Of a DNA stretch of 64,000 bases, positions 13,843 through 63,768 are shown one piece after another (position 1 is the first letter of the stretch; every line of letters starts with the position of its first letter). The DNA lies in contig CAUYUJ010001302.1 in assembly GCA_963575745.1 (NCBI GenBank), forward strand, positions 15,001 through 79,000. The letters run 5' to 3'. The notes beneath the pieces were generated by a model. That model worked only from the letters and a program-made list of their open reading frames with translations. It did no database searches and was not told where the DNA came from. The DNA is from Prorocentrum cordatum (Eukaryota > Sar > Dinophyceae > Prorocentrales > Prorocentraceae). The position numbers were made by a program, and so were the translations under genes.

Positions 13843-15661
13843 CTGGGCGCCGGCGGTAAACCGTCAACCTTTCTTACCGCAGGGGGACTCGTAGAGCTTC
13901 CTGACCATATATTATGTCCAAAGAATTAGCAGAGAACGAACAGTTTTTCAGCCCGAGCGCTGATAGCAGACTGATCTCAGGCGTCGAGTGATATTCCATT
14001 GCTGTGCTGAACAATTCTATAGCTCATCAGCAGCGCGTAGAAAATACCATTAGGCAGAAAATAGCAAAGTACGAATCCGTGCTTGGCGTCTGCACTCACA
14101 ACAGACCCAAACCAAGCGTCTAGATGTTTTGCGCCTCGCGATGTCCTTCTGATTTTTCGGCCGAAAAGCAGCTCGAGTTCAGTAAAGAAATCCGCCATCA
14201 TTTGGGAAGAAAATTGGGTCGAATAGGAATAGCTTTGTGAACCTAGCTCGGGTAGCAGACCAAGTTCAAACTTCTCGATGCAACAGACGAACGCTCACAA
14301 TGCTTCTGCATCAGTTTCTGTGCGTACCAGCTCTGCAGCTCTCCTACAGCCCGAGTTCAATACAGAAAAGGGACAAGATCTGTCAAGATGATTTGAAGAA
14401 TACGAATAGTTTTGCGGACCTAGCTCGAGCAGCAAACCCAGTTCATACCTATGGATGCAACATACGAACGCGCATGATCCTTCCGAATCAGTGTCTGTGC
14501 GTATCGGTTCTGTAGGTCTCCTACAGCCCGAGTTACGTGCGAAAATCCACAGCACCTCTCAAGATGACTCGAACGATACGAATAGTTTCGCGAACCAAGT
14601 AGCAGATCGAGTTCAGACCTCTGGATGCAACAGACCGCGCCCGATTATTTGGCATTCGTTTCTGTGCGCATCAGCTCGGTAGCTCCCCTCGAGCTCGAGT
14701 TGAGTATAGCAAACCGACAGTCCCTGTTCAGATGGCTCGAGCAATACGAATAGTTTTGCGGACCTAGCTCGAGTAGCAGACCGAGTTCAGACCTCTGCAT
14801 GCGACAGGCGGACGCGCCTGATGTCTCCGAATCGGTTTCTGTGATTACCAGCTCTCTAGCCCCCCTACAGCCCGAGTTAAGTGCAGAAAACCGACAGCAC
14901 CTCTCAAGATGACTCGAACAATACGAATAGTTTCGCGGATCTAGCTCGGGCAGCAGACTGAGTTCAGACCTCTGGATGCGACAGACGAACGCGCCCGATG
15001 ATTCTGAATTTCTGTAAGTATGAGCTCTGTAACTGCCCTACAGCTCGAGTTAAGTACAAAAAACCGACAACACCTGTCGAGATGACTTGAAATAGCCGAT
15101 CCCGCCCGCGTGCTTTTTGGCAGTAAAAGATACCCGATCGAGCTGATATCAAGACGGCGAGCGGGAATAAGATCGAATATCACGGGAAAAAATACTAGAG
15201 CTCTAACGAATGGTTGAATTTCGAAAACAAGATTTTCAACTGACCAAAAGTCATCAGAAGGTCCGTCGAGATTTTTCTTGCCAACTAGCTTTCCAGCGCC
15301 CCGGAACTGGGAACCGGCGGTGAACCGTCAACCAGGTTACCACCGGGAGCCTCGTAGAGCTCTTTCCTTACGCGGCGCTTACATGGAAAGAGCTTAAAAA
15401 ATATGTTCTTCTCATTTTCATTCAAAGACGGTTCCCCCAAGTCTTTTGATAGACGCGGCACAACCCACTACAGGTGCGAAAAATACCAGATCTCAAAACG
15501 AATGTTGAAATGTCTCACAATCTTTGTCTAACAGGCCCAAATTTCACACATTGTCCGTCGGGGCCGGATCGGCTAACTAGCTGCACCCCGCGCCGGAATT
15601 CCTCTAGCTCATCGACGCCGAAGCTCTACGAGGTACTAGCTGAGGGAAGCTCCACGAGTTA
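13843..15661 (-). mobile_element. HLE-A interrupted by a C element
   Basis: Hairpin at 13843, about seven satellite units (13920-15080), the A-specific 5' region (CGATCCCGCCCG..TTTTTGGCAGTAAAAG), C inserted at 15307, and the 5' tip CTAGCTGAGGGAAGCTCCACGAGTTA at 15636-15661. About 20 bp around the C junction are missing. Confidence 0.7.
15307..15635 (-). mobile_element. HLE-C, short copy (329 bp)
   Basis: It runs from CTGGGAACCGGCGG to GCCGAAGCTCTACGAGGTA. The hairpin is imperfect (GGTGAACC..GGTTACC) and the interior carries small deletions relative to 25910-26307. Confidence 0.75.
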
Positions 15662-16211: not shown

Positions 16212-17149
16212 CGTGCCCGCGCCCGCATGCGTCAGCCACACCCATGTCGGCACACCCCTCACGCGCTTCGTGGCTCCATAGGGAGCTCCACCGAAGGCCC
16301 CAGTGCCCGCGCCCGCATGCGTCACCCACACCCATTTCGGCACACCCCTCACACGCTTCGCGGCTCCATAGGGAGCTCCACCGAAGGCCCCAGCGCCCGC
16401 GCCCGCATGCGTCACCCACACCCATTTCGGCACACCCCTCACACGTTTCGCGGCTCCATAGGGAGCTCCACCGAAGGCCCCAGTGCCCGCGCCCGCATGC
16501 GTCACCCACACCCATTTCGGCACACCCCTCACACGTTCGTGGCTCCATAGGGAGCTCCACCGAAGGCCCCAGTGCCCGCGCCCGCATGCGTCACCCACAC
16601 CAATTTCGGCACACCCCTCACACGTTTCGTGGCCCATAGGGAGCTCCACCGAAGGCCCCAGTGCCCGCGCCGCATGCGTCACCCACACCCATTTCGGCAC
16701 ACCCCTCACACGTTTCGTGGCTCCATAGGGAGCTCCACCGAAGGCCCCAGTGCCCGCGCCGCATGCGTCCCCCACACCCATTTCGGCACACCCCTCACAC
16801 GTTTCGTGGCCCCATAGGGAGCTCCACCGAAGGCCCCAGTGCCCGCGCCCGCATGCGTCACCCACACTCATTTCGGCACACCCCTCACACGCTTCGTGGC
16901 TGCATAGGGAGCTCCACCGAAGGCCCCAGTGCCCTCGCCCGCATGCATCACCCACATCCATTTCGGCACACCCCTCACACGCTTCGTGGCTCCATAGGGA
17001 GCTCCACCGAAGGCCCCAGTGCCCGCGCCCGCATGCGTCACCCACACCCATTTCGGCACACCCCTCACACGTTTCGTGGCCCCATAGGGAGCTCCACCGA
17101 AGGCCCCAGTGCCCGCGCCCGCATGCGTCACCCACACCCATTTCGGCAC
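16212..17149. repeat. 89-bp tandem array, about 10.5 copies
   Basis: Units (GTGCCCGCGCCCGCATGCGT ... CATAGGGAGCTCCACCGAAGG) repeat every 89 bp (GCATGC at 16315 and 16404), a few at 86-88 bp. It is GC-rich and unlike the satellite elsewhere. Stops are absent from several frames, giving long spurious ORFs. It sits between an E fragment and a plus-oriented A fragment. Confidence 0.9.
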
Positions 17150-32434: not shown

Positions 32435-33526
32435 TCAACTTGGTTTTTTGCGGTTTTGCGGGCAGCGAAGGCTCCGTCGAAGCCTGCCCGAGCCAAACGC
32501 CCAGCAGGGCGCCTCGAGCTCTCTGTGGGCTCTCAGCACGCACTCGGCCGCCCCAATGAGGCGCTCCTGCGCCGTCAGTTCGGCATCAGTGACTGTGCTA
32601 TCTCTAGGCAAGAGAAGGGCCGCCTCCGCAACATCTCTCCAAACGAGACCGTCACAGGAGGCAGCAAGCTGAGGCGAGTCGGGGGCAGCGGAAAGCCGCA
32701 GGCGCTTGGAGCAATGTTCAGGATGGGGGAGAAAGGCGGCCTCGAGAAAGAAACCAATACCACAACCAGACGCATCCACTCCGCCGTCGAAACGACCGCG
32801 GAGGGCAACAAGCTCATGATACTCTAAAAGATCGGGTGGAACAGGCCTCATAGTGTAACACTCGCGGTCTTCCCGCGCACAATGTGCGAGGGCATCCGCC
32901 CTCTGGTTGTTCTCTCTGAATTCGTGTTTGAGGAAGTCACGACCAAGGAAACTGGATCTGAGATGGTATCGATTTTCCAGCCACGCAATCTTATCCACCA
33001 GCTTATCGACTCTCTTTTGATACACGTTGTTTCCCACCCTCCACTTCCCACGGACCCAATTTATAATAAGAAGACTATCACCGCAGAGCTCCACAGGGAG
33101 CCCATCCGAAACAACATCCCAGACCGTCGCCCTTTCATTTAGGATGGCTAACCGTTTTGCTAACTTTTCCGCCTCCGCTCCAGACACCTCCTGAGACATC
33201 AACTCATCCCTAGACATCTTTTCCACCACAGAGTCTTTCCCCTTTCCAGAATACACGAAATACTCAAACGCTTTCTCATGGCCACAGTGTTTCAGGTAAT
33301 CAGGCATCTTGTCGAGGAACGCTTTCCAGGAAAACTCACCGTCCTTCCACCAAGAGGCCCCAAATAGGAGATATGCCATGTAACTCCAAGGTCTTTCTCC
33401 TGATGCACCAGCTCCGACACGAATACGCTTCAGAGCACTAGCCTCCTTCCACGATCCCTTCTGTCTGAGGACCTCACTGAAGTCTGAACGAGCACCCTCC
33501 CATGATCGACACGAACACAGCAGCAT
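32435..33526 (-). pseudogene. LINE insertion 4 ORF2, C-terminal segment with permuted RNase H
   Basis: 363 codons. The first ~140 match the linker after the RT in the other LINE (LLCSCRSWEGAR, EKAFEYF). RNase H-like motifs follow in the order GDSLLIINW (Asp150), FRENNQRADAL (Asp211), RFDGGVDASGCGIG (Asp247), TVTDAELTAQE (Glu316), so strand-1 and helix-A motifs come after the strand-4 and last-Asp motifs. The frame reads through the A-rich tail and stops in the target, so the native stop is probably lost by frameshift. Confidence 0.75.
32460..32489 (-). other. 3' terminal stem-loop of LINE insertion 4
   Basis: Plus strand: GGGC, unpaired AGCGA, AGGCT, loop CCGTCGA, AGCCT, GCCC. It starts 16 nt from the junction, with the same fold as the other insertions. 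Confidence 0.65.
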
Positions 33527-33901: not shown

Positions 33902-35935
33902 CTAATAACGTTTGAACTTCAGATGCCAATGCACCGCACGGGATCGAAAGTATTGGATATGCCCAAAGAATGCCTTGCGGGCAGCGTTGAGACGGCGGTC
34001 AACATCCACATGCGGCTCGCGAAAAGAATCCGCGATGTCATTCCCCAGTACGTTGATGACAGAAACCTGCTGCAGCTCGACACTGACGTACTCATCAGCC
34101 CCATCGAGGCCGATATCCCCAGGCATATTAGAGCGATGGACACTGGTAAAGAATTTCCCAGGGGAGCAACCAATAGCAGCAAACTGAAGGCTATCCAACT
34201 TCCAATCAAACTTCCATTGATGCAAGGCAAGAGTAAAGTCATTCAACTGTTGTTGAAAAGCCTTGGGATTCAGGCCTGAGCCAATGATGTACACATTGTC
34301 AGCAAAGATGAGATGGTTTACCACGGCGGTCTCTGTTGTCTGGTTGGGGTTGATACACTCGTAGCCTAGGCCTCCCTTGTCCCAGTCCTGAACAATATCA
34401 GCCCACATGGCTGCCACTACAGCGTTCCAACATGCTGGGCTCTCGTTACCTCCCGTCCTAACGTGCTTGTCTACTTTGACCCCAGGGACCCCGAGACCAT
34501 CGAAGAGCACCGTGGAGACCTCGTCCGCCAGGGGTTCCAGTAGAGCCAGCTGGAGATACGGAGGAATACCGAGTCTTTCAAACGCAAATGTGATCTTCTG
34601 AACCGTCATATTCTGGAAAGCTTGTTTAACGTCCAAACTGGCGATCAGCAAAGACCTGTCCTTTCCCCAGACTGCCGCATGTTGGGCCGCACATTTGAGG
34701 GCCCCCGAGATCTCCCCACAGCAGCGTTCGGCCGCGAACCCGAAGAGCGAGATATGGGGCAACACCTTGGCAAAGTAGGGCTCGAGGACGACAAGGACCG
34801 ACGACGAGTACCACTTCTTGATAGCACTCTCCACTGCATAACTCCGAGTAGCCTCCGAGAGATGGGTAAGAACTTTCAACTTTTTCGGCATCAGGGTAAT
34901 GAAGGTCTGACGCCAAGATCCAGGCACGGCACGAAGACCACGAAATATCTCATCAAAGCGATCAGCAAAAATACGAACGGTCCGATACGGGAGTTCTTTG
35001 AGCACCTCCGCGGAGATCCCATCTGGCCCTGACGCCTTTGTCGCATGAAGACGAGAACGAGCTCGAAACACCGCTGAGACAGGCAGACGGGGAACATCCT
35101 GGGATCCAGCAGCCACGCGTGCACGCAGCGAGGCCAGAGAGAGATGGGTACGCTCGCGCTCGTCCACATCTGTGTAGCTCTGCGTGTGATCCAAGAGGGA
35201 GGCGTGCCAATCAACCCGATCCACGGACCCGTGGACGCTCTCGATCGTGTGCTTCTGTGTCCTCCTCCGCCCTTCCGAGAACCTCCAAGCCATCCATCTC
35301 CTGTCGAACTTCCTCTTCTCCTGGTCTCTCCTCCTCCTGATCTTCTTGAACTCCTCCGACGTCTTGTCCCCCTCCCACCTCTTAACTTCCTCCTGCAATC
35401 GAATAAGTTCAGGGTGCCGACGGGGAGGGAGCATAGACGAGCAGGCAGCAGTCGAAGTAGCAGACGCATCACGAGGACAACGTTTCTCAATCTCTCCGAG
35501 GCTGAGGTTCTCCTCGATTGACGAGTCGAGACGTGTCTGAAACGAGCAGCCGTCGTGCCAGGTCAGCGGCATCCATCTGGATAGGCACCGCACAGCCCGT
35601 GCAACGTATCTGGGCGCGACGACTGGTCTATCGAGCTGCAACTCCGTTTGCACCAACGCGTGGTCACTAAACCTGCGAGTACTGCCCAACTCGCGAGGCC
35701 AGGACACCGAGGCGGGCGCAAACACGGTACCACGAGATACTAGCACATAGTCCAAGACCTTCCCCGCCTCTCGTGCCCCTGTCCTCTCCCTGAACGTGTT
35801 GCTGGCAATCAAGCTCTCCTCCATCATCCAGTCCTCCACCTTGATACGTAGTAACGAATACCTCCTCCTCCTTTCCCTCTCCATCCCACCATCCCCATGA
35901 CAAACATCAGCGCCTAGCAGACCTGGGCCCGTCAA
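33902..35935 (-). pseudogene. LINE insertion 4 ORF2, endonuclease end and reverse transcriptase
   Basis: 677 codons. The frame enters inside an APE-type endonuclease (KVLDYVL about 59-65; SDH about 90-92). RT follows: GPDGISAEVLK about 303-313, motif A LDVKQAF (Asp435), motif B RTGGNESP about 493-500, motif C FADNVYI about 544-550. Motif C has Asn where the second catalytic Asp is expected, and motif B has Glu where Gln is usual. Homology extends upstream of the apparent start (TTG) to about 35955, where the truncation meets the target hairpin. It ends at a stop after HLKFKRY, a frameshift relative to the other LINE. Confidence 0.8.
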
Positions 35936-36535
35936 GGCGGTGCCTTCGATGTCCGTGAGATGTGGTCACCGCCGGGAACCTCGTAGAGCTCCTTTCATGC
36001 GTAAAAGTGCTCAGAGTCGAAAGAGAGAGCTTCTGGAAGCATTTCTCGAAAAAAAAGGAAACATTGTTTTTTTTGGTGTCGACATGAAGATGGTTCCGCC
36101 AAATGTTTTCATAGTAAAAGTACGCCTACAGAGCTCATACTAAGACAGAGAGGCCCTCATAGTCGTTCATAGATCCGAAAAATCTGCTTTCTCAAAATGA
36201 ATTGTCAAATATCTTTCAAAAAATTGCAAAACCACCCAAAAGTTATCACTTTGTCCTTTCTGGCCGGGTCGACCAACTAGCTCCACCCCGCGCCGGAATT
36301 CCTCTAGCTCATCGATGCCGAAGAGCTCTACGAGGTATTAAGACGCAGAGGCTCTCAGAATCGTTCACAGGTGCGAAAAATCTGCTTTCTCAAAATGAAT
36401 TGTCAAATATCTTTCAAATCTTAGCAAAACCGACCGAAAGTTGTCACATTGTCTCTTCTGGTCGGGTCGGCCAACTAGCTCCACCCCGCGCTGGAATTCC
36501 TCTAGCTCATCGATGCCGAAGAGCTCTACGAGGCA

Positions 36536-39927: not shown

Positions 39928-40119
39928 CTGGGCGCCGGCGGTAAACCGTCAACCTTTCTTACCGCCGGGGGACTCGTAGAGCTTCCTGACAATATATAAT
40001 GTGGAAAAAACGCAGAGAACGAATAGCTTTTCAGCCCAAGCGATTTCAGACCTCCCGATGCAACAGCCGAACGCCCCCGATGCTTCTGGATTGTCTTCTT
40101 CACGAGCTCTGCAGCTCTC

Positions 40120-41250
40120 TTACAGCCCGAGTTACGTGCGCATCGACAGCACCTCTCAAGATGACTCCAACAAAACGAATAGTTTGGCAACCCAGCTCGA
40201 GTATCAAACCGAGTTCAGACCTCTGAATGCGACAGACGGATGCGTCTGATGTCTGCGAATCGACTCCTGTGATTACCTGCCTTGCAGCCCACCTACAGTC
40301 CGAGTTAAGTGCAGAAACCGACAGCACCTCTCAGGATGACTCGAACAATACAATAGTTTTGCGGAGCAAGTTCGGGCAGCAGACCGAGTTCCGAGCTCTG
40401 GATTCGACAGACGGACGCGCCTGATGTCTGCAAATCGATTCCTGTGACCACCAGCACTGTAGCCCCCCCTCCCCCCCCCCCCAGCCCGAGTTAAGTGCAG
40501 AAAACCGAGAGCACTTCTCAAGATGACTGGAACAATACGAATAGTTTCGCGATTCTAGATCGGGCAGCAGACCGATTTCAGAGCTCTGGATTCCACAGAC
40601 AAATACGACTGATCATTCTCAATCGGTCTCTGTAAGTATCAGCTCTGTAGCTGTCCTATAGCTCGAGTTAAGTACAGAAAACCGAGAGCGTCTGTCAAGA
40701 TGACTCGAATAATACGAATAGGTTTGCGGACCTAGCTCGGCTAGCAGACCGAGTTCAGACCTCTGGATTCAACAGGCGAACGCGCCCAATCATTCTGAAT
40801 CAATGAGCTGTGCTTACCAGCTCTGTAGCTGTCCTATAGCTCGAGTTAAGTACAGAAAACCGAGAGCGTCAGTCAAGATGACTCGAATAAAACGAAAAAG
40901 TGTGCAGACCTAGCTCGGCTAGCAGACCGAGTTCAGACCTCTGGATTCAACAGGCGAACGCGCCTAATCATTCTGAATCGATGAGCTGTGCTTACCAGCT
41001 CTATAGCTGTCCTATAGCTCGAGTTAAGTACAGAAAACCGAGAGCGCCTGTCAAGATGACTCGAAAAATACGAATAGGTTTGCGGACCTAGCTCGGCTAG
41101 CAGACCGGGTTCAGACTTCTAGATTCAACAGGCGAACGCGCCTGATCATTATGAATCGATTAGCTGTGCTTACCAGCTCTGTGGCTGTCCTAAAGATGGA
41201 GTTATGTTCAGAAAACCGTCATTGCGTGTCAAGATGACTTGAAACGGCCG
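40120..41250. repeat. ~177-bp satellite array (longest example)
   Basis: Head-to-tail units of about 170-181 bp carry TACGAATAG, the palindrome-like CTCGGNNAGCAGACCGAG, and a hairpin around AGCTCTGTAGCTGTCCTACAGCT. Spacings at 28812/28993/29170 are 181 and 177 bp. Arrays lie only inside A or E elements. Others at roughly 620-1340, 1800-2640, 4440-5520, 9830-10960 (inverted), 13920-15080, 18760-19390, 21110-21720, 24930-25690, 26740-27590, 28680-29530, 30560-31410, 36640-37470, 37780-38600, 41850-42660, 42900-43740, 50520-51190, 55170-56040, 57020-57780, 59260-59930, 60600-61930 and 62370-63500. Confidence 0.85.
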
Positions 41251-44497: not shown

Positions 44498-46534
44498 TCA
44501 AGAAGCAAAATCACTGTCATCAAATTGCTGAAGCTGTATGCGTATGGCACGTGTCAATGCTTCGGCAGCGGACAACTCACATTCGGTGATCGTGGCGCCT
44601 GGCTCCAACCAAGCCGCAGCAGCAGCGTCTCTCCAAATCAACGGTGTGTCAGCATGATAATGTAGAGAGGAAGAGGTCGGGTAGGGGGAGTATCGTGTAG
44701 AATACACTCCATGCCGAGACGCCCGCGAAGACATGTTGAGATAGCCAACCTGCATCCAGTAACCGCATGCACTGCCCTTGCTGCACACTCCCCCGTCGTA
44801 CCCTCCACGACAGGCGACTACCTTCAAAGAGTCACGTTCGAAGGGATATCGATGGCAATAGTTATGATGAAATGTGTGGCCATCTCTGGCCAAATGAGTA
44901 AGTTCGTCTGCTCGGGTGTTTGCTTCACGAAATTCATGTACAAATATGTCTCGCCCAACGTTCGATGCCCGTGCTCGGTGTGATAAGCTAAGTGCGTACA
45001 TGTCGTTGACACACCTGTGTACACGCTCACGATATGCACGATTATGACAACGCCAACGTCCCGTAAGCCAGCTCTGGACCAACAAAGAGTCTCCCTTGAT
45101 CTCAATTCCAACTCCGTTCGACATGATATCAAATACAGCTTCCCGTTCATTGATAATCGCCAACCGTCTTGCTTGTTTCATGTTCTCCTCCTCCGTCGCC
45201 TCCTCGTTCCTTCCTGTTCCCTCCTTACATTCTCTCCCAACAACTCCTCCTGGTACCTGTTTCCAATTCGTGCAGAAGTACTCGAATATCTTAGGCCTAC
45301 CATACGTGCGTAAAAGTGCTTCCCATGTCTGCAGAAATGTGGCATATCCTGGTCGGAAGGTCTCCCACCACTCATCCCCATGAATCTGTATGTACGGGTA
45401 CTGCCAAGACCGCTGCCCAACACTATCCCCTCCAGCACGCAGCCGTTTGCCTTCAGAGGCACGCCTACGATCTCCATGACAGCGGAGACACTCAGTGAGA
45501 GCCATGCGGTGCGCTTCCCAGGTCTTGTGTGTACAAAGCAATGCCGTGCGAGAATCAACAAATGCACGTCTCGTGGTATCAGGATGTGGCTCAACCTTGC
45601 GTGCAACACGTCGGCCGTCAGCGCCATCATTGTGCTGGGAACCGCTCGAGACCCCATCCTCACAACTTACTCCTGAACCTGGGCCTCTCCACCGGGGAGG
45701 CCCAGGATTTGTGAAATCAAAATTGCCATAAGCCGTGCTGACCGAATGCGCGACGCTCCAACTCTTCCACGCCACGATCTGGACGATGCTAGGAAATCCC
45801 AGCGAGCAGAAAGAAGCCCTCGCTGTGTCAAGCATATGTGGCTTCCAGACCTCCCATCTCTGTCCCGCAGGCTTCCGTCGACAATGCATGGCCAGCAGGC
45901 ATCTGCCCTCAAAGGTATGAAGCAATCGAACACCTTCAGGGTCCAGCGTACATGTATCCAGTCCGTATGCTAATACACTCTGTACCAGGCTCTGATACCG
46001 TCGATACCGCTTACGAAGAGGGAGAGCACGACAACGATAATACTTAGCTTGCCCATAAAACGCGCGTCGTGCACAGTCAATCCGAAATTGTATGTCCTCA
46101 TGCGTGCCCCCATACTGCTGCGAGACGACCGTTCCCAACACATTCAGCTGAGAGACTGACTTGAATGGGACCTGCACCCCCTGGATATCAGCGAAGAAAG
46201 TAGTGGTATCGCGGTCGCCCACCACCATCGATTCAAGTGAATCTGACTTCCACTCTAGTCCCCATGTACGTAAAGCGTGAGTAAGTGTGTCGATCATCAG
46301 CTGCATCTGAGCCGATGTACTGGCCACGAGATATATGTTATCTGCCCAAATCGCATGATTGTAAACATGTGCGCGCGTCATGTCGTGCATGTTGCTGTAC
46401 GGGATCTCCACACCTATACGTTCGTTATCCCACCTCTGTATGACCTCCGCCCACATGGCCAACACAACCAAAATTAAAGCACAGGGGAGACTCGGTACCC
46501 CCCGTTCTGAGAGATCGATCCCATCGTACCCCAC
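44498..46534 (-). CDS. LINE ORF2, 3' frame: RT end, linker and permuted RNase H
   Basis: This frame has no start of its own. It continues ORF2 after a one-base shift near 46475: an extra G in AATTTTGG splits RT motif B. About residues 24-170 finish the RT, with motif C IWADNIYLV (Asp65, Asn66 instead of Asp). A linker of ~280 residues is conserved in the other LINE (FEGRCLLAM, WEVWKP, LLCTHKTWEAHR, KIFEYF). The last ~220 residues hold RNase H-like motifs in permuted order: GDSLLVQSW (Asp482), FREANTRADELTH (Asp543), GGYDGGVCSKGSACG (Asp580), TITECELSAAE (Glu653). All four putative ligands are present. The RNase H would remove template RNA during reverse transcription. Confidence 0.85.
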   Translation of the reverse strand: MGYDGIDLSERGVPSLPCALILVVLAMWAEVIQRWDNERIGVEIPYSNMHDMTRAHVYNHAIWADNIYLVASTSAQMQLMIDTLTHALRTWGLEWKSDSLESMVVGDRDTTTFFADIQGVQVPFKSVSQLNVLGTVVSQQYGGTHEDIQFRIDCARRAFYGQAKYYRCRALPLRKRYRRYQSLVQSVLAYGLDTCTLDPEGVRLLHTFEGRCLLAMHCRRKPAGQRWEVWKPHMLDTARASFCSLGFPSIVQIVAWKSWSVAHSVSTAYGNFDFTNPGPPRWRGPGSGVSCEDGVSSGSQHNDGADGRRVARKVEPHPDTTRRAFVDSRTALLCTHKTWEAHRMALTECLRCHGDRRRASEGKRLRAGGDSVGQRSWQYPYIQIHGDEWWETFRPGYATFLQTWEALLRTYGRPKIFEYFCTNWKQVPGGVVGRECKEGTGRNEEATEEENMKQARRLAIINEREAVFDIMSNGVGIEIKGDSLLVQSWLTGRWRCHNRAYRERVHRCVNDMYALSLSHRARASNVGRDIFVHEFREANTRADELTHLARDGHTFHHNYCHRYPFERDSLKVVACRGGYDGGVCSKGSACGYWMQVGYLNMSSRASRHGVYSTRYSPYPTSSSLHYHADTPLIWRDAAAAAWLEPGATITECELSAAEALTRAIRIQLQQFDDSDFAS

Positions 46535-48521
46535 CTAACTCCAAGCCCTCGAACGTGAGCGTGCCCGTCGTGTCAGTTAAGGGCTCGATCAGAGCATATT
46601 GTAGCTGTACAGGTATGTTAAGCATGTGCATCGCGCGTGCCAAGGTAGTGAGCTTAACATGGTCGAAGGCTCGTGCTATATCACATGAACAGAAGAACGC
46701 TTTCCTATCTTTCCCCCAGACGCTCGCATGCTGTGAGATGGCCTTAAGGGGTCCCGCTACTTCCCACGTCCTCCGATCCTGTGCGAAACCATACAAGCCC
46801 AATCGCCCCATGTACTGTTCAGCATACCTCTCGATAAGGATAGTAACACAGGTGAGGTACCATTTTCCTAACGTGTTCTGTACAACTATATTGCGTGTTT
46901 GTGTGAGCGAATCTAGATTCACCAGCTTGGGCATCAGCGTGATGAGTACCTCTCTCCAGCAGTCAGGTGACCGACGATCACCATCAAAGATATCTCGAAA
47001 CACATGGAAAATCTGGCGAACAGATCGCCACGCCAAAGCCTTCAAGAGCTCCACGCTGACCCCATCTGGGCCGCAGCTCTTGCCAGATCTCAATCGTGCA
47101 CGTGCTTCGTTCACCACCCCCATCGTGAGCTGCATGTGCATGTCGTGCATCGTACTGCTGCTGCTGTGTGCCCTAGCTGCTCGTGCACGTCGCCGTAAGT
47201 CAGATACCAGCTCGCTGTTCCTCATCCTCTCCTCTACGCTCGTCATCGTGTTCAAGCTGTGCTGCTTCATCCCCTCCTCCACCCACCTCTTACGATCCTC
47301 CGTCACCTCCCCGTCGATCTTCAGAGACTTGACATTCACTTTCTTGCTTTTGCGAGGGTTCGCGAAGGTATACTCGATCTCACTACGCCTATCTGCATTG
47401 ACCAGGGGCCTCATAAGTTCCCTCAGGCGCTTTCTCTCATCAGGATTCCCACGGGCTCCACGATACTGATGCTGAAGATCTGCTAGCTTTTTAGACTTAG
47501 CATGTGCACGATGCGCAGAGGAAGGCGGATTGAGCAGAGGCAACGCATGCTGATGCAACGACTTCGCGATCTCGTCAGGGCGTGTGGCCTCAATACCAAT
47601 GTCCACCAACGCTCTGAAACAGAACTCCTCTCTGTGGGACTCGAATGCCCGGCGTGCCGTGACGTGTGGCCGAACAACCTTGTGTCGGTACATCTCCTGG
47701 GGTTCCCTTGGGGCCAACAGGGTTTTGATCACTGCATGATCGCTCAAACGTGCCACACGCCCGTCCTGCAACCAACTGTACGAGATATCTTCTACTGTCC
47801 ACTGCCTGGGCGCCAAGATGTAATCTAAGACCTTTGTGGGCTCACTCTCACCGAAGTGCCAGTAGGTCGGCACCCGTGCTTCAAAAGTGTTGATCGCAGC
47901 CAGCTCCTCCTCCTCCAAGAACTCCTCAATCTGGTCCCTCATGCACACCTCCTTGGCCCTCCTGTCCTCCAAATCAATGGCACCGTTCCGACCAAGTCCC
48001 CTCTCCCTCGATCTTCTGAGTCCTGGTCCCGTCACCCTCCTCCCATCCACCTCCAACTCTGGCGTGAGCTCCACATTGGCATCACAGGCAAGCAACAAGC
48101 GAAAGTGGTGGCCATGGTTGGCCTGAGCCTGTCGATGCAGGCGGCGTACATCATGCAGTATCCGTCTGCATATCTCTGGAGCGTCTGGATGAGACGCATC
48201 AGCAAAATAAGCACTAGTGAAACAAACTCCCGATCGATGAACAATCATCGCAACCCGATCTGCTTGATAAGAGGCTATCACGTGGGGCAGGTGGCGACGT
48301 TTGAGAAGCACCGCTGCCCGCATGCAAGTACTTTTTGAAACAGCATCCCACCCCAGACGCTGAATTAAGGTGTCATTGAAGTCCACGTTTTGACATTCTT
48401 GCAAAGCCACAACATTTAAGCCTACCCCATGTAGCGCTCGTAGAATAGCGTAAGCCCGAGACTCGAGCCGCCCAGCTCTCGCAACATTGAGTGTGCCTGC
48501 TGCGAGAGTCGCGAGAGCCAT
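46425..48521 (-). CDS. LINE ORF2, 5' frame: APE-type endonuclease and RT start
   Basis: ORF2 starts at an ATG 24 nt after the ORF1 stop. Residues 1-270 are an exonuclease/endonuclease/phosphatase-fold nuclease: TLNVAR (Asn12), LQECQN (Glu42), LACDANV (Asp147, Asn149), KVLDYIL (Asp233) and SDH (260-262). It should nick the target, here the HLE hairpin loop. A basic linker follows, then RT from about 475: GPDGVSVELLK (484-494), WREVLITLMPK, motif A CDIARAFD (Asp614), and motif B RTGGTESP (672-679) with Glu where Gln is usual. The frame stops at 46425 just past motif B because of a one-base insertion; the rest is at 44498-46534. It may be a recent mutation or a sequencing error, as the flanking frames are otherwise clean. 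Confidence 0.9.
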   Translation of the reverse strand: MALATLAAGTLNVARAGRLESRAYAILRALHGVGLNVVALQECQNVDFNDTLIQRLGWDAVSKSTCMRAAVLLKRRHLPHVIASYQADRVAMIVHRSGVCFTSAYFADASHPDAPEICRRILHDVRRLHRQAQANHGHHFRLLLACDANVELTPELEVDGRRVTGPGLRRSRERGLGRNGAIDLEDRRAKEVCMRDQIEEFLEEEELAAINTFEARVPTYWHFGESEPTKVLDYILAPRQWTVEDISYSWLQDGRVARLSDHAVIKTLLAPREPQEMYRHKVVRPHVTARRAFESHREEFCFRALVDIGIEATRPDEIAKSLHQHALPLLNPPSSAHRAHAKSKKLADLQHQYRGARGNPDERKRLRELMRPLVNADRRSEIEYTFANPRKSKKVNVKSLKIDGEVTEDRKRWVEEGMKQHSLNTMTSVEERMRNSELVSDLRRRARAARAHSSSSTMHDMHMQLTMGVVNEARARLRSGKSCGPDGVSVELLKALAWRSVRQIFHVFRDIFDGDRRSPDCWREVLITLMPKLVNLDSLTQTRNIVVQNTLGKWYLTCVTILIERYAEQYMGRLGLYGFAQDRRTWEVAGPLKAISQHASVWGKDRKAFFCSCDIARAFDHVKLTTLARAMHMLNIPVQLQYALIEPLTDTTGTLTFEGLELGGVRWDRSLRTGGTESPLCFNFGCVGHVGGGHTEVG

Positions 48522-48545
48522 GCTTTTGGATCTCTCGCAGCACCC

Positions 48546-49667
48546 TCATTGTCCGAGTGCATCCTCCATTTCTTTGTGGGTCGTGGCGATGCCGTACGTC
48601 ATGACAACTTCGTTCCAGACCGTCTGATCAACGTTCCAAGTGCCCGTATCCTGTTTCCACTTGGCCAGCTCCATGCTTCTTTTGGTACGGAGACATGGGG
48701 GAATGGTCCACATCACACTGACCCCCTTTCCACTCCCAGGCACTCCCTTGATCTTCATTGTCGTTTCAGGATTCCTCGCAATGACCGTATCGCGCCACAC
48801 ACCATGGAATCTGCCAACAGCATTGATGTGGTCCTCTTTCCATGGCGGTGCCTGTGTCTTGATCCGAATGGAGCCTCCAGCCGCACACGGTCTGTTGTCC
48901 ATGTCTTTGAAAAGATCCTGTGGCGTCGGACGGGCAAGAGACCTTTGCTCCTCAGTTCGATCCTCAGGCGGGATCAGAGCTTCTTCCCAAAACTTTTTGC
49001 ACCTCCAGAGTACGTCTGACTCAGTACCAGTGGTAAACTTGATGCGGAAGTTTGCGTAGTTGGGACGATTCCCATTCATACGAAGCGTACCAAGCTCGTC
49101 AATCTTCGCACGGTCATCCTCTGGGAGGCTCATCTTCAAGTTGTGAATGAGAATGCCCACGTCCCGATCTGAAATCATTTGCTCTGACCGTCGAATCGGA
49201 TTCCTCCAGTCAGTCACCCATCCACGAAAATCGATCCACTCTGGATTGAAGGCTCGGAATGGACGCCTGCTCTCGTTTGGCCAAGTCGCCTCACCCCCAA
49301 AGCCAGCAGAAGTAGCACCAGTGGATGCCCCAGAACCTGCAGCAGTATGCGACTTGAGCTCTAAGACCTGCTTCTCAAGATCTGTCATTCGTTTATCCAT
49401 CTGAGCCTGGCCTTCAGCCATTCGTCGTTCAGCACTGTCCTGCCGTCGTTGCATGGTAGCCATATCGTTAACCATGCCTGTCACCTTGCGGTCAGTAATT
49501 CTTTGCTGCTGCAGTTGCTGCTTCCCCAGTTCGAAGAATTGCTTCATGGGATTCTGTTCATCAAAAGCCAATCCGTGGATATCAGCATCTAGTACATTCT
49601 CAGCGTCCATGCCCTCAGCCCCGTCGTCTTCTCTCTTGCGCCGGCTGCCCGACACTGGAAGCGCCAT
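48546..49667 (-). CDS. LINE ORF1 protein, coiled-coil (373 aa)
   Basis: The first ORF of the LINE, starting at the ATG at 49667. The N-terminus is basic (SRRKRE). About 40-108 is Gln/Glu/Lys-rich with heptad-like spacing (KQQLQQQRITDRK, MDKRMTDLEKQVLELK), probably a coiled coil for oligomerisation, followed by a Gly/Ser/Thr-rich linker (109-127). About 143-230 could be an RNA-binding alpha/beta domain (WIDFRGWVTDW, SDRDVGILIHNL, YANFRIKF, KKFWEEAL). A C-terminal domain (about 265-365) holds WKEDHINAVGRF. No zinc knuckle is visible. By analogy with other LINE ORF1 proteins it should bind element RNA as a chaperone; family membership is inferred from position and coiled coil. Confidence 0.75.
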   Translation of the reverse strand: MALPVSGSRRKREDDGAEGMDAENVLDADIHGLAFDEQNPMKQFFELGKQQLQQQRITDRKVTGMVNDMATMQRRQDSAERRMAEGQAQMDKRMTDLEKQVLELKSHTAAGSGASTGATSAGFGGEATWPNESRRPFRAFNPEWIDFRGWVTDWRNPIRRSEQMISDRDVGILIHNLKMSLPEDDRAKIDELGTLRMNGNRPNYANFRIKFTTGTESDVLWRCKKFWEEALIPPEDRTEEQRSLARPTPQDLFKDMDNRPCAAGGSIRIKTQAPPWKEDHINAVGRFHGVWRDTVIARNPETTMKIKGVPGSGKGVSVMWTIPPCLRTKRSMELAKWKQDTGTWNVDQTVWNEVVMTYGIATTHKEMEDALGQ

Positions 49668-49994
49668 ACTCTAGTGGGCACTCGTGCGACGGAGTTGTAT
49701 ATTGTGGCCAACTTCAATGAACACACGTGTGACAGAGTCCACAGAAATGTGCACAGGGAGCAAAACTGACAAGCTCTGGCAAGAATCAATCCCAAAGTAT
49801 AGAGAGTTCCCCACCACTGGAGCAATACGGAGAAACACTCTGATATGTGCACCCGCGGTACTCAGGCAAAACAGACTCTGAAGCACCGTGTACAGTATGT
49901 GGAACCGAAGACTCCCTACTGCACAATGCAGCTCGAGACGAGGGGACCCCAGCGGTGAGGCCAGGCTGAGCAGGAGGTAAGCTCTGCCCAGACT
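49668..49994 (-). promoter_or_regulatory. LINE 5' UTR with conserved 5' box
   Basis: Non-coding leader upstream of ORF1. The first ~65 nt on the sense strand (49921-49984, AGCTTACCTCC..CGAGCTGCATTGTGC) match the 5' end of insertion 2 (8714-8774), and both have a nearby GAGTACCG. It is a likely internal promoter region, inferred from conservation only. Confidence 0.5.
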
Positions 49995-52460: not shown

Positions 52461-54893
52461 CTGGGCGCTGGCGGTAGACCGTCAACCTTTCTTACCGCCG
52501 GGGGACTCGTAGAGCTTCCTGACAATGTATAATGTAGAAAAAATTGCAGAGAACGAATAATTTTTAACCCAAGCGATTTCACACCTCTCGATGCAACAGC
52601 CGAACGCCCACGATGCGTCTGGATTGTCTTCTGGGCTCTGTAGCTCTCCTACAGCCCGAGTTACGTGCGCAAATCGATAGCACCTCTCAAGATGACTCGA
52701 ACAAAACAAATAGTTTGAGAAACACAGCTCGAGTATCAGACCGAGTTCAGACCTCTGAATGCGACAGGCGGACGCGTCTGATGTCTCCGAGTCGATTCCT
52801 GTGATTACCAGCCCTGCAGCTCCCCTGCAGCCCGAGTTAAGTGCAGAAAACCAAGAGCACCTCTCAGGATAACTCGAACAATACGAATAGTAACTCGTAG
52901 AGCTTCCCTTAGCAAGTTGTTGCTGGAAGCTTAAGAGTAATTCCGAGGCGCTGGAGAGCTAGTTGGCAAGAAAAATCTCGACGGACCTTTTGGTGACTTT
53001 TGGTCGGTTGAAAATTTTGTTCTCGAAATTCAACCATTCGTTAGAGCTCTAGTATTTTGTCCCGTGATATTCGATCTTATTCCCGCTCGCCATCTTGATC
53101 TCAGCTCGATCGGGTAGCTTTTACTGCCAAAAAGCACTGCGGCGGGATCGGCCGTTTCAGGTCATCTTGACACGGGGTGGCGGTTCTCTGAACATAACTC
53201 GAGTTATAGAAGAGCCACAGAGCTGGTGAGCACACCTCATCGATTCAGAATGATCAGGCGCGTTCGCCTGTTCCATCCAGAGGTCTGAACTCGGTCTGCT
53301 AGCCGAGCTGGGTCCGCAAACCTGTTCGTATTATTCGAGTCATCTTGACAGGCGCTGTCGGTTTTTTGTACTTAACTCGAGCTATACGACAGCTACAGAG
53401 CTGATACTTACAGGAACCGATTCAGAATCATCAGTGACGTTGTCTGTTGAATCCAGAGCTCTGAACTCGGTCTGCTGCCCGAGCTAGGTTCGCCAAACTG
53501 TTTCTACTGTTCGAGTCATCATCCTGAGAGGTGCTGTCGGTGTTCTGTACGTAACTCAGGCTGTAGGGGGACTACAGGGCTGGTAATCTCAGGAATCGAT
53601 TCAGAGACATCAGGCGCGTCCGTCTGTCGAATCCAGAGCTTGGAACTCGGTCGGCTGCCCGAACTAGGTCCACGAAACTATTCGTATTGTTCGAGTCATC
53701 CTGAGAGATGCTGTCGGTTTTCTACACTCAACTCGGGCTGTAGGGGGGCTGCAGGGCTGGTAATCACAGGAGTCGATTCGGAGACATCAGACACGTCCAC
53801 TGTCGCATTCAGAGGTCTGAACTCGGTCTGATACTCGAGCTGGGTTTGCCAAACTATTCGTTTTGTTCGAGTCATCTTGAGAGATGCTGTCGATTTACGC
53901 ACGTAACTCGGGCTGTAGGAGAGCTACAGAGCTCGTATAGAAGACAATCCAACATCAGGGGCGTTCGGCTGTTGCATCGAAAGGTCTGAAATCTCTTGGG
54001 CCGAAAAACTATTCGTTCTCTACGTTGTTTCTCGACATTATATATTCCCAGGAAGCTCTACGAGTCCCCCGGCGGTAAGAAAGGTTGACGGTTTTACCGC
54101 CGGCGCCCAGTTTCGCGGACCTAGTTCGGGCAGCAGACCGAGTTCCGAGCTGTGGATTCGACGGGCGGACGCGCCTGATGTCTTCAATTCGATTTCTGTG
54201 ATCACATGCACTGTAGCCCCCTACAGCCCGATTTAAGTGCAGAAAACCGACAGCACCTCTCAAGATGACTCGAACAATACGAATAATTTCGCAATTCTAG
54301 ATCGGGCAGCAGACCGAGTTCAGAGCTCTAGATTCAACAGACAACGTCACTGATGGTTTTGAATCGGTTTCTGTAAGTATCAGCTCTGTAGCTGTCCTGA
54401 AGCTCGAGTTTAGTACAGAAAACCGAGAGCCACAGTCAAGATGACTCGAATAATACGAACAGGTTTGCGGACCTAGCTCGGCTAGCAGACCGAGTTCAGA
54501 CCTCTAGATGTAACAGACGGACGCGCCTGATCATTCTGAATCGATACGGTGTGCTTGCCAGCTGTGTAGCTGTCCTGTATCTCGAGTTAAGTCCAATAAA
54601 CTGACAGCGCGTATCAAGATGACTCGAAACGGCCGATCCCGCCCGTGTGCTTTTTGGCAGTAAAAGGTACCCGATCGAGCTGAGATCAAGATGGCGAGCG
54701 GGAATAGGATCGAATATCACGGGAAAAAATACTAGAGCTCAAACGAATGGTTGAATTTCGAGAACAAAATTTTCAACCGACCAAAAGTCACCAAAAGGTC
54801 CGTCGAGATTTTTCTTGCCAACTAGCTCTCCAGCGCCCCGGAATTACTCTTAAGCTTCCAGCAACAACTTGCTAAGGGAAGCTCTACGAGTTA
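52461..54893 (-). mobile_element. HLE-A hosting an opposite-strand A
   Basis: Hairpin at 52461, satellite units split at ACGAATAG^TTTCGCGG by the plus-oriented A, then satellite and A 5' region to GAGTTA at 54893. Confidence 0.8.
52891..54110 (+). mobile_element. HLE-A, complete plus-oriented copy (1220 bp)
   Basis: Read directly: TAACTCGTAGAGCTTCCC, A 5' region, satellite, GGAAGCTCTACGAGTC, hairpin, CGCCCAG. It sits between G and T of the satellite consensus CGAATAGTTTCGCGG with no duplication. It is the clearest example of the element's own-strand structure. Confidence 0.85.
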
Positions 54894-62299: not shown

Positions 62300-63768
62300 C
62301 TGGGCGCCGGCGGTAAACCGTCAACCTTTGTTACCGCCGGGGGACTCGTAGAGCTTCCTGACAGTATATAGTGTGGGGAAAAATCCAGAGAACGACTAGT
62401 TTTCAGCCCAAGCGATTTCAGACCTCTCAAGATGACTCTAAGAAAAAACAAACAGTTTCGCAACCCAGTTCGAGTATCAGACCGAGTTCAGACCTCTCAA
62501 TGCGACAGGCGGACGCGTCTGATGTCTGCGAATCGACTCATGTGATTACCAGCCCTGCAGCCCCCCTACAGCCCGAGTTAAGTGCAGAAAACCGACAGCA
62601 TCTCTCAGGATGGCTCGAATAATACAATAGTTTCGCGGACCTGTTTCGAGCAGCAGACCAATTTCTGAGCTCTCGAATCGACCAACGAACGCGCCTGATG
62701 TGTGCAAATCGATTTCTATGACCCGCAGCACTGTAGCCCTCCCCCAGCACGAGTTCAGTGCAGAAAATTGAGAGCACTTTTCACGATGATTCGGACAATA
62801 CGAATAGTTTCGCGGACCTAGCTCGGGCAGCAGGCCGAGTTCAGAGCTCTCGATACAACAGACAAACGCGCCCGATAATCCCCAATCGATTTCTGTGAGT
62901 ATAGGCTCTGTAGCTGCCCTACAGCTCGAGTTAAGTACAGAAAACCGAGAGCGTTTGTCAAGATGACTCGAATAATACGAATAGATTTGCGGACCTAGCT
63001 CGGCTAGCAGACCGAGTTCAGACCTCTGGAGTCAAGAGGCGAACGCGCCTGATGATTCTGAATGCGATGGACGTGCTCACCAGCTCTGTAGCTGCCCTGC
63101 AACTCGAATTACGTACAAAATACCCACCACGCGTATCAAGTTGACTCGAATAATACGAAAAGGTTTGCGGACCTAGCTCGGCTAGCAGACCGAGTTCAGA
63201 CCTATGGATTCAACAGGCGAACGCGCCTGATGATTCTGAGTGCGATAGGTGTGCTCACCAGCACTGTAGCTGCCCTACAGCTCGAGTTAAGTAGAGAATA
63301 CCGACAACGCGTATCAAGTTGACTCGAATAATACGAATAGGTTTGCGGAGCTAGCTCGGCTAGCAGACCGAGTTCAGACCTATGGATTCAACAGGCGAAC
63401 GCGCCTGATGATTCTGAGTGCGATAGGTGTGCTTACCAGCACTGTAGCTGCCCTACAGCTCGAGTTAAGTAGAAAATACCGACAACGCGTATCGAGATGA
63501 CTCGAAACAGCCGATCCCGCCAGTGTACTTTTAGGCAGTAAAAGGTACCCGATCGAGCTGAGATCAAGATGGCGAGCGGGAATAAGATCGAATATCACGG
63601 GAAAAAATACTAGAGCTCTAACGAATGTTCAAATTTCGAGAACAAAATTTTCAACCGACCAAAAGTTGTGAAAAGTTCAGTTCTTTTTTTTCGAGCCAAC
63701 TAGCTCTCCAGCGCGCCGGAATTACTCTTAAGCTTCCAGCAACTAGCTTGGGGAAGCTCTACGAGTCA
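62300..63768 (-). mobile_element. HLE-A, complete copy (1469 bp)
   Basis: From CTGGGCGCCGGCGG to GGGGAAGCTCTACGAGTCA, with about six satellite units, the largest uninterrupted A in the window. It abuts the next A directly. Confidence 0.8.

Follow-up and report, generated by a model that had tools for sequence, protein, structure and literature searches.

Locus and element

We analysed a 64,000-nucleotide window (the whole stretch of DNA considered here) of Prorocentrum cordatum, positions 15,001 to 79,000 of contig CAUYUJ010001302.1 (assembly GCA_963575745.1). On its minus strand lies a copy of a long interspersed nuclear element (LINE) with two open reading frames (ORF1 and ORF2). The end of ORF2 encodes a domain which we read as a probable RNase H in circularly permuted order, with the C-terminal half of the canonical domain (here the N-half) placed ahead of its N-terminal half (here the C-half). 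The features of this copy, in window positions, are:

48546..49670, minus strand: ORF1 (P0006, 374 amino acids), with no Pfam family above cut-off
46425..48545, minus strand: first part of ORF2 (P0004), apurinic/apyrimidinic (AP)-like endonuclease region and N-terminal part of the reverse transcriptase (RT)
44498..46534, minus strand: second part of ORF2 (P0001, 678 amino acids), end of the RT, connecting region, putative permuted RNase H and stop
44501..45172, minus strand: putative circularly permuted RNase H domain, P0001 residues 455-678
44879..45112, minus strand: N-half beta4-alphaB-beta5-alphaE, P0001 residues 475-552
44507..44827, minus strand: C-half beta1-beta2-beta3-alphaA, P0001 residues 570-676
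45089..45091, minus strand: Asp482, the beta4 Asp of GDSLL
44906..44908, minus strand: Asp543, the alphaE Asp of NxRAD
44795..44797, minus strand: Asp580, the beta1 Asp of YDGG
44576..44578, minus strand: Glu653, the alphaA Glu of TECEL

The plus-strand translation of 44531-45172 is interrupted by stops. P0004 and P0001 lie in different frames, so the LINE copy of the window is broken by a frameshift.

Order and conservation of the RNase H motifs

The preliminary description of this DNA, made from the letters alone, had reported four RNase H motifs in a rearranged order at the ORF2 C-terminus and had named Asp482, Asp543, Asp580 and Glu653 as the residues to test. Both the order and the residues are correct: in P0001, GDSLL starts at residue 481, FREANTRADEL at 535, YDGGVCSKGSACG at 579 and TECELSAAE at 650. 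The elements run beta4-alphaB-beta5-alphaE, then a linker of 23-24 residues, then beta1-beta2-beta3-alphaA. The canonical order beta1-beta2-beta3-alphaA-beta4-...-alphaE is not present, and the permuted order was found in every family read. The four acidic metal ligands that define an RNase H (Asp, Glu, Asp, Asp) are all in place. We take Asp482 and Asp543 to be equivalent to Asp70 and Asp134 of E. coli RNase HI, and Asp580 and Glu653 presumably correspond to its Asp10 and Glu48.

Two relatives in the window, belonging to a second and a third family, have the same order and keep all four acidic residues, as had been claimed for them:

32501..33163, minus strand: putative permuted RNase H of the second family (P0002, frame 33625-32435)
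33902-35965, minus strand: endonuclease/RT part of the second-family element, in a frame separate from P0002
23305..23904, minus strand: putative permuted RNase H of the third family (P0003, frame 24081-23302)

The P0003 copy is apparently a LINE with a 5′ truncation that has retained the permuted domain. The alignment of the window copies P0001, P0002 and P0003, which are 36-38% identical, has all three Asp and the Glu unchanged. The spacing between the first two Asp is 61 in all nine proteins measured, followed by 36-37 to the beta1 Asp and by 49-78 from there to the Glu, the breadth of the last range reflecting the variable beta2-beta3 insert. The stop-free four-motif pattern in permuted order matched 27 of 70 loci, namely 26 of the 38 fetched with P0001, P0002 or P0003 (three being the window's own copies) and the locus of a fourth family (L069). 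The 30 canonical RVT_3 loci all lacked it, as did L070, a further relative. Asp, Asp, Asp and Glu stand at every readable motif of the 39 permuted-family loci, which were tallied as best-scoring matches and not as a random sample; all four motifs are readable in 27 of the 39.

It could be argued that the domain has the permuted order but is no longer an RNase H, and serves ORF2 as a tail with a structural role or one that binds nucleic acid, its acidic residues being retained only to bind metal or to stabilise it. Some RNase H-like folds are known to lack nuclease activity, the profile scores given below are low, and RNase H activity is something that we infer. However, four carboxylates that remain invariant at this level of identity, and recur at the readable motifs of 39 loci, are hard to explain without metal-dependent catalysis, and we regard such a tail as unlikely.

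Families in the genome and relatives elsewhere

The host genome searched comprises 4.13 Gb in 21,875 contigs. The first family, that of P0001, gave 66 matches, the second at least 107 and the third at least 147, partial matches included. An open frame of 1348 amino acids is listed for 35 of the 66 first-family matches, and among the 147 third-family matches listed, 29 have one of 1317 and six one of 1319 amino acids, so that many copies of these two families carry long open ORF2 frames. The fourth family (L069) is 40% identical to P0002, has the permuted order and ends 17 residues past the Glu motif. L070 is 47% identical to P0002, but its frame is broken and the N-half alone is visible.

A protein database search returned 12 relatives originating from NCBI, ENA, JGI and another source, one of which (P0009) is a P. 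cordatum protein. The relatives that hold parts of both halves have the permuted order too; among the incomplete ones, P0013 loses its frame near the end and P0015 stops before the Glu motif. Ten of the 12 entered the alignment of relatives (P0013 and P0018, which has an odd start, were left out), and the 8-sequence domain alignments used below leave out P0007 (97% like P0002), P0013 and partial sequences. A scan of viral contigs gave 52 pattern matches, none of them confirmed, and a scan of phages gave no relative; in both, records close to the host genome may be left out. No long, full-length relative was present among the 1147 candidates of a search designed to find such proteins.

The frameshift of the window copy might suggest an assembly or gene-model artefact, or the rearrangement of one dead copy. 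This is refuted by the 27 open-frame loci that share the order, by relatives from other sequence sources and by the numbers of matches of the three families, and we consider its probability negligible. The earlier statement that the order is not a peculiarity of one rearranged copy therefore stands.

Within families, the ratio of nonsynonymous to synonymous polymorphism (pN/pS) was 0.16-0.58 wherever a value was obtainable, using 7 of 7, 12 of 14 and 10 of 14 loci, which are best-scoring copies and hence biased low. The C-half of the first family showed zero differences among the loci compared. Between the first and fourth families, where synonymous sites are saturated, the nonsynonymous divergence (dN) was 0.42 for one half and 0.52 for the other.

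Profile comparison of the two halves

Canonical RVT_3 domains gave 80 matches in other frames of the host genome. For profile comparison with hhalign we used 23 of the 30 RVT_3 loci (L009-L038), leaving out five with stops as well as L035 and L037, and reduced this set to 10 domains by removing members at least 85% alike. The N-half matched this canonical profile with a probability of 95%, which identifies it as the homologue of the beta4-alphaE half of the RNases H found in LINE-like frames such as L010, L020 and L036; those domains differ in having the canonical order. It also matches positions 63-121 of the 123 of Pfam RVT_3, weakly (E 0.15; 12.4 bits in P0002 against a cut-off of 21.6 bits, which the first de-permuted member, at 15.1 bits, does not reach either). 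All PDB sequence matches up to E 10 were RNases H. The C-half alone scored 21.58, above all 200 column shuffles (maximum 18.29).

When the halves were swapped back into canonical order, the de-permuted domain aligned end to end in global mode with a score of 55.63, where 200 versions with shuffled C-half columns reached at most 50.98. The same arrangement, cut at alphaE/beta1, came first among 48 rotations scored globally, with the native order 16th (46.21); in local mode the scores were nearly flat over many rotations. The global scan agrees with the proposal that strands 1-3 and helix A follow the last helix, with the cut between helix A and strand 4.

De-permuting the same eight sequences also improved PDB profile matches, from E 0.024 to 6.4e-4 for 3u3g and from 0.17 to 0.0053 for 4h8k, and stretched the match into alphaA; 4e19 stayed at E 0.012. 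These top matches are LC11 RNase H1 (3u3g, 4h8k) and Halobacterium RNase HI (4e19), with which the halves align separately; both differ from the LINE domain in being stand-alone enzymes of canonical order. In Pfam the swap made little difference: RVT_3 was recovered in seven of the eight de-permuted members (best E 0.0077) and in six of eight in native order (best 0.011), and in four of the 13 members of a further alignment. No Pfam family reached its curated cut-off over the permuted region among the rows listed. Below cut-off RNase H families were the most frequent, alongside weak, chance-like rows (HATPase_c_2, best E 0.022; Resistin, 0.19; others). In NCBIfam, searched with the de-permuted set, RNase HI models appeared in six or seven of eight members (best E 3.9e-4), with scores for the first member far below the cut-offs. 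Among the rows listed, neither half was assigned to a non-RNase H family, an outcome that the preliminary description had named as fatal to its proposal.

Predicted structure

The AlphaFold model of the whole domain has a mean predicted local distance difference test score (pLDDT) of 79.8 and a predicted template modelling score (pTM) of 0.76, with the elements in permuted order. The cores of both halves exceed pLDDT 90 in this monomer, and the insert between beta2 and beta3 is of low confidence. The C-half modelled alone (pLDDT 88.6) is predicted to fold as beta-beta-beta-alpha. Structural comparison with RNases H was made half by half: the C-half model aligns with 4h8k 3-70, 3u3g 1-70, 4e19 67-133 and E. 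coli RNase HI (1wsj 1-64), and the N-half of the whole model with 4e19 93-199. Sequential searches with the whole model were topped by PelC, CsgG and CapZ, which we do not count as related, since an alignment made in sequence order is unable to follow the permutation and RNase H rows appear for each half.

The model thus shows the order of elements expected from the motifs, and its halves align separately with parts of RNases H but tie with other folds. Several results weigh against the permuted reading. Unrelated folds score as high as RNases H for the C-half model; the C-half alone reaches an hhalign probability of 7% and has no match among PDB sequences; and the local score of the de-permuted domain (52.23) lies within the range of its C-half shuffles (mean 50.82, maximum 58.61).

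The pTM of the model would fit one domain better than two loose halves, and the two separate incomplete domains that would have counted against the proposal were not seen. A related arrangement is a domain-swapped dimer, in which the C-half of one ORF2 molecule would complete the N-half of another. The linker is compatible with either arrangement and the AlphaFold models are of monomers only; the pTM of the monomer, the confidence of both half cores and the near-constant linker length nevertheless point to a single chain, and we hold the swapped dimer to be very unlikely.

We also considered whether a canonical N-terminal half had been overlooked, with the helix before beta4 as the real alphaA, beta1-3 further upstream and the C-terminal beta-beta-beta-alpha as an extra copy. 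There is indeed a conserved helix before beta4 (KRLAIxNERxTVWD), where AlphaFold also predicts one, and the alignments with three solved RNases H begin inside it, at about model residue 22-25, and for two of them at chain residues 27-28. Yet the helix adds nothing to a comparison with canonical alphaA (47.52 against a shuffle mean of 47.64), it lacks an invariant Glu (Met in P0003), and the DGG and TxxEL motifs occur at the C-terminus only. The stretch of up to 144 residues before the domain scored no better than shuffles against canonical RNase H (56 of 100 reached its score), and no relic of a canonical N-terminal half came to light there. The helix and upstream comparisons weaken this explanation, which we judge highly improbable.

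Other features of the elements and the window

In P0004, Exo_endo_phos (E 3.1e-4, 21 bits against 24.5) and RVT_1 (E 1.8e-4) are below their Pfam cut-offs. RVT_1 exceeds its cut-off of 29.6 bits in P0019, the 1165 amino acids of the open frame of L002 contained in that locus (42.3 bits), and in P0005 (32.7 bits). RT motif C reads WADN in P0001, and [WF]ADN replaces the [FY]xDD box in all three families in which the RT was read. More generally, motif C was seen as WADN, FADN or W/FSDN in place of FADD/YADD, the second Asp being changed to Asn. Such boxes lie in P0001 (about 46340, minus strand), P0005 (about 34350, minus strand), L042, L050, L056, L063, L010, L020 and L033; the Asn-type pattern matched seven of the 14 frames scanned, some of which are without the RT part.

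Among the LINE-like frames with canonical RNase H, L010 and L020 have RVT_3 at 501-622 and 501-625, ahead of RVT_1 (from 746 and 742). By eye, the RNase H of L010 (minus strand) and L020 (plus strand) apparently follows an endonuclease-like region and a first RT block, an unusual place. In the LINE-like frame L036 one stretch looks CCHC-like by eye. The canonical RNase H of this frame sits close to the C-terminus and has a motif, DSLLVVKQINGVWRC, resembling those of the permuted domains; motif C of L036 seems, by eye, to be of the ordinary DD type.

The window is rich in repeats. About 75% of it has a non-self match of at least 80 bases to another part. A repeat of about 177 bp forms many dispersed short arrays (e.g. 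14222-15091, 40105-41218, 53181-53937, 62478-63506), and a 90-bp tandem array at 16213-17149 has 10.5 copies, 96% matching, with several frames open.

Comparison with known RNases H

The closest known counterpart is the RVT_3 or archaea-like RNase HI (PF13456) of plant L1 and oomycete LINEs, with which the domain shares the four acidic residues, the DSxxV...NxxAD pattern and the location in a LINE ORF2. It differs in its permuted order, with the cut at alphaA/beta4 and a linker joining alphaE to beta1. The acquisition of an archaea-like RNase H by plant L1 was reportedly the subject of Smyshlyaev et al. in 2013. In the literature searched, which mostly lay outside subscription papers, we found neither a permuted LINE RNase H nor the phrase 'circularly permuted RNase H'. 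The main text of the survey of the RNase H-like superfamily by Majorek et al. 2014 (PMC3985635), as far as available, contains no word starting with 'permut'. The 2025 CIRPIN preprint (PMC12667903) describes one pair of RNase H-like domains, from AlphaFold database clusters, that are related by circular permutation. That pair is likewise a permutation within the RNase H-like fold, and the accessible part of the preprint leaves the proteins unnamed and states no LINE link. With this caveat, the earlier assertion that no LINE RNase H of this order had been described holds against the literature searched. The domain is an RNase H by homology and active-site residues; it departs from the known ones in its linear order, and it scores under the Pfam cut-off.

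Interpretation

From the order of the motifs, their conservation and the profile homology, which is strong in the N-half and weak in the C-half, we are fairly confident that a group of LINEs in this dinoflagellate-like genome carry, at the ORF2 C-terminus, an RNase H of archaeal/plant-like RVT_3 type that is circularly permuted by nature. Judging from its sequence, the domain is probably a working enzyme.

We infer a single joint domain, its catalysis, a role in retrotransposition and an origin along the following lines. The old termini (end of alphaE and start of beta1) would be joined by the linker, and the new ones would lie between alphaA and beta4, so that the RT would lead into beta4 and the protein would stop shortly after alphaA. 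Folded back as a single RNase H domain, the chain would bring Asp580, Glu653, Asp482 and Asp543 together in the customary two-metal site. Other retrotransposon-borne RNases H remove the RNA strand of the hybrid during reverse transcription. By analogy, ORF2 would nick the target, the RT would copy the element RNA, and the RNase H would probably remove the RNA strand of the RNA/cDNA hybrid. As to origin, a canonical domain was likely duplicated in tandem and the two outer halves then lost; no tandem-duplicate intermediate was seen.

The permutation may have occurred once, in the ancestor of an entire group of dinoflagellate LINEs, and have provided their sole ORF2 RNase H since, a combined proposition to which we give roughly even chances. 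If true, these LINEs would contain a functional and circularly permuted RNase H lineage of their own, and its attachment to the RT at beta4 instead of beta1 would alter the way in which the hybrid meets the RNase H site.

Few nuclease folds are used as widely as that of RNase H. Its natural permutation in multicopy LINEs would show that new termini at alphaA/beta4 can be tolerated in evolution, that RT and RNase H can be coupled in another geometry, and that such domains escape profile searches which depend on the order of elements. With homologous canonical domains present in the same genome, these elements would offer a natural test case for circular permutation.
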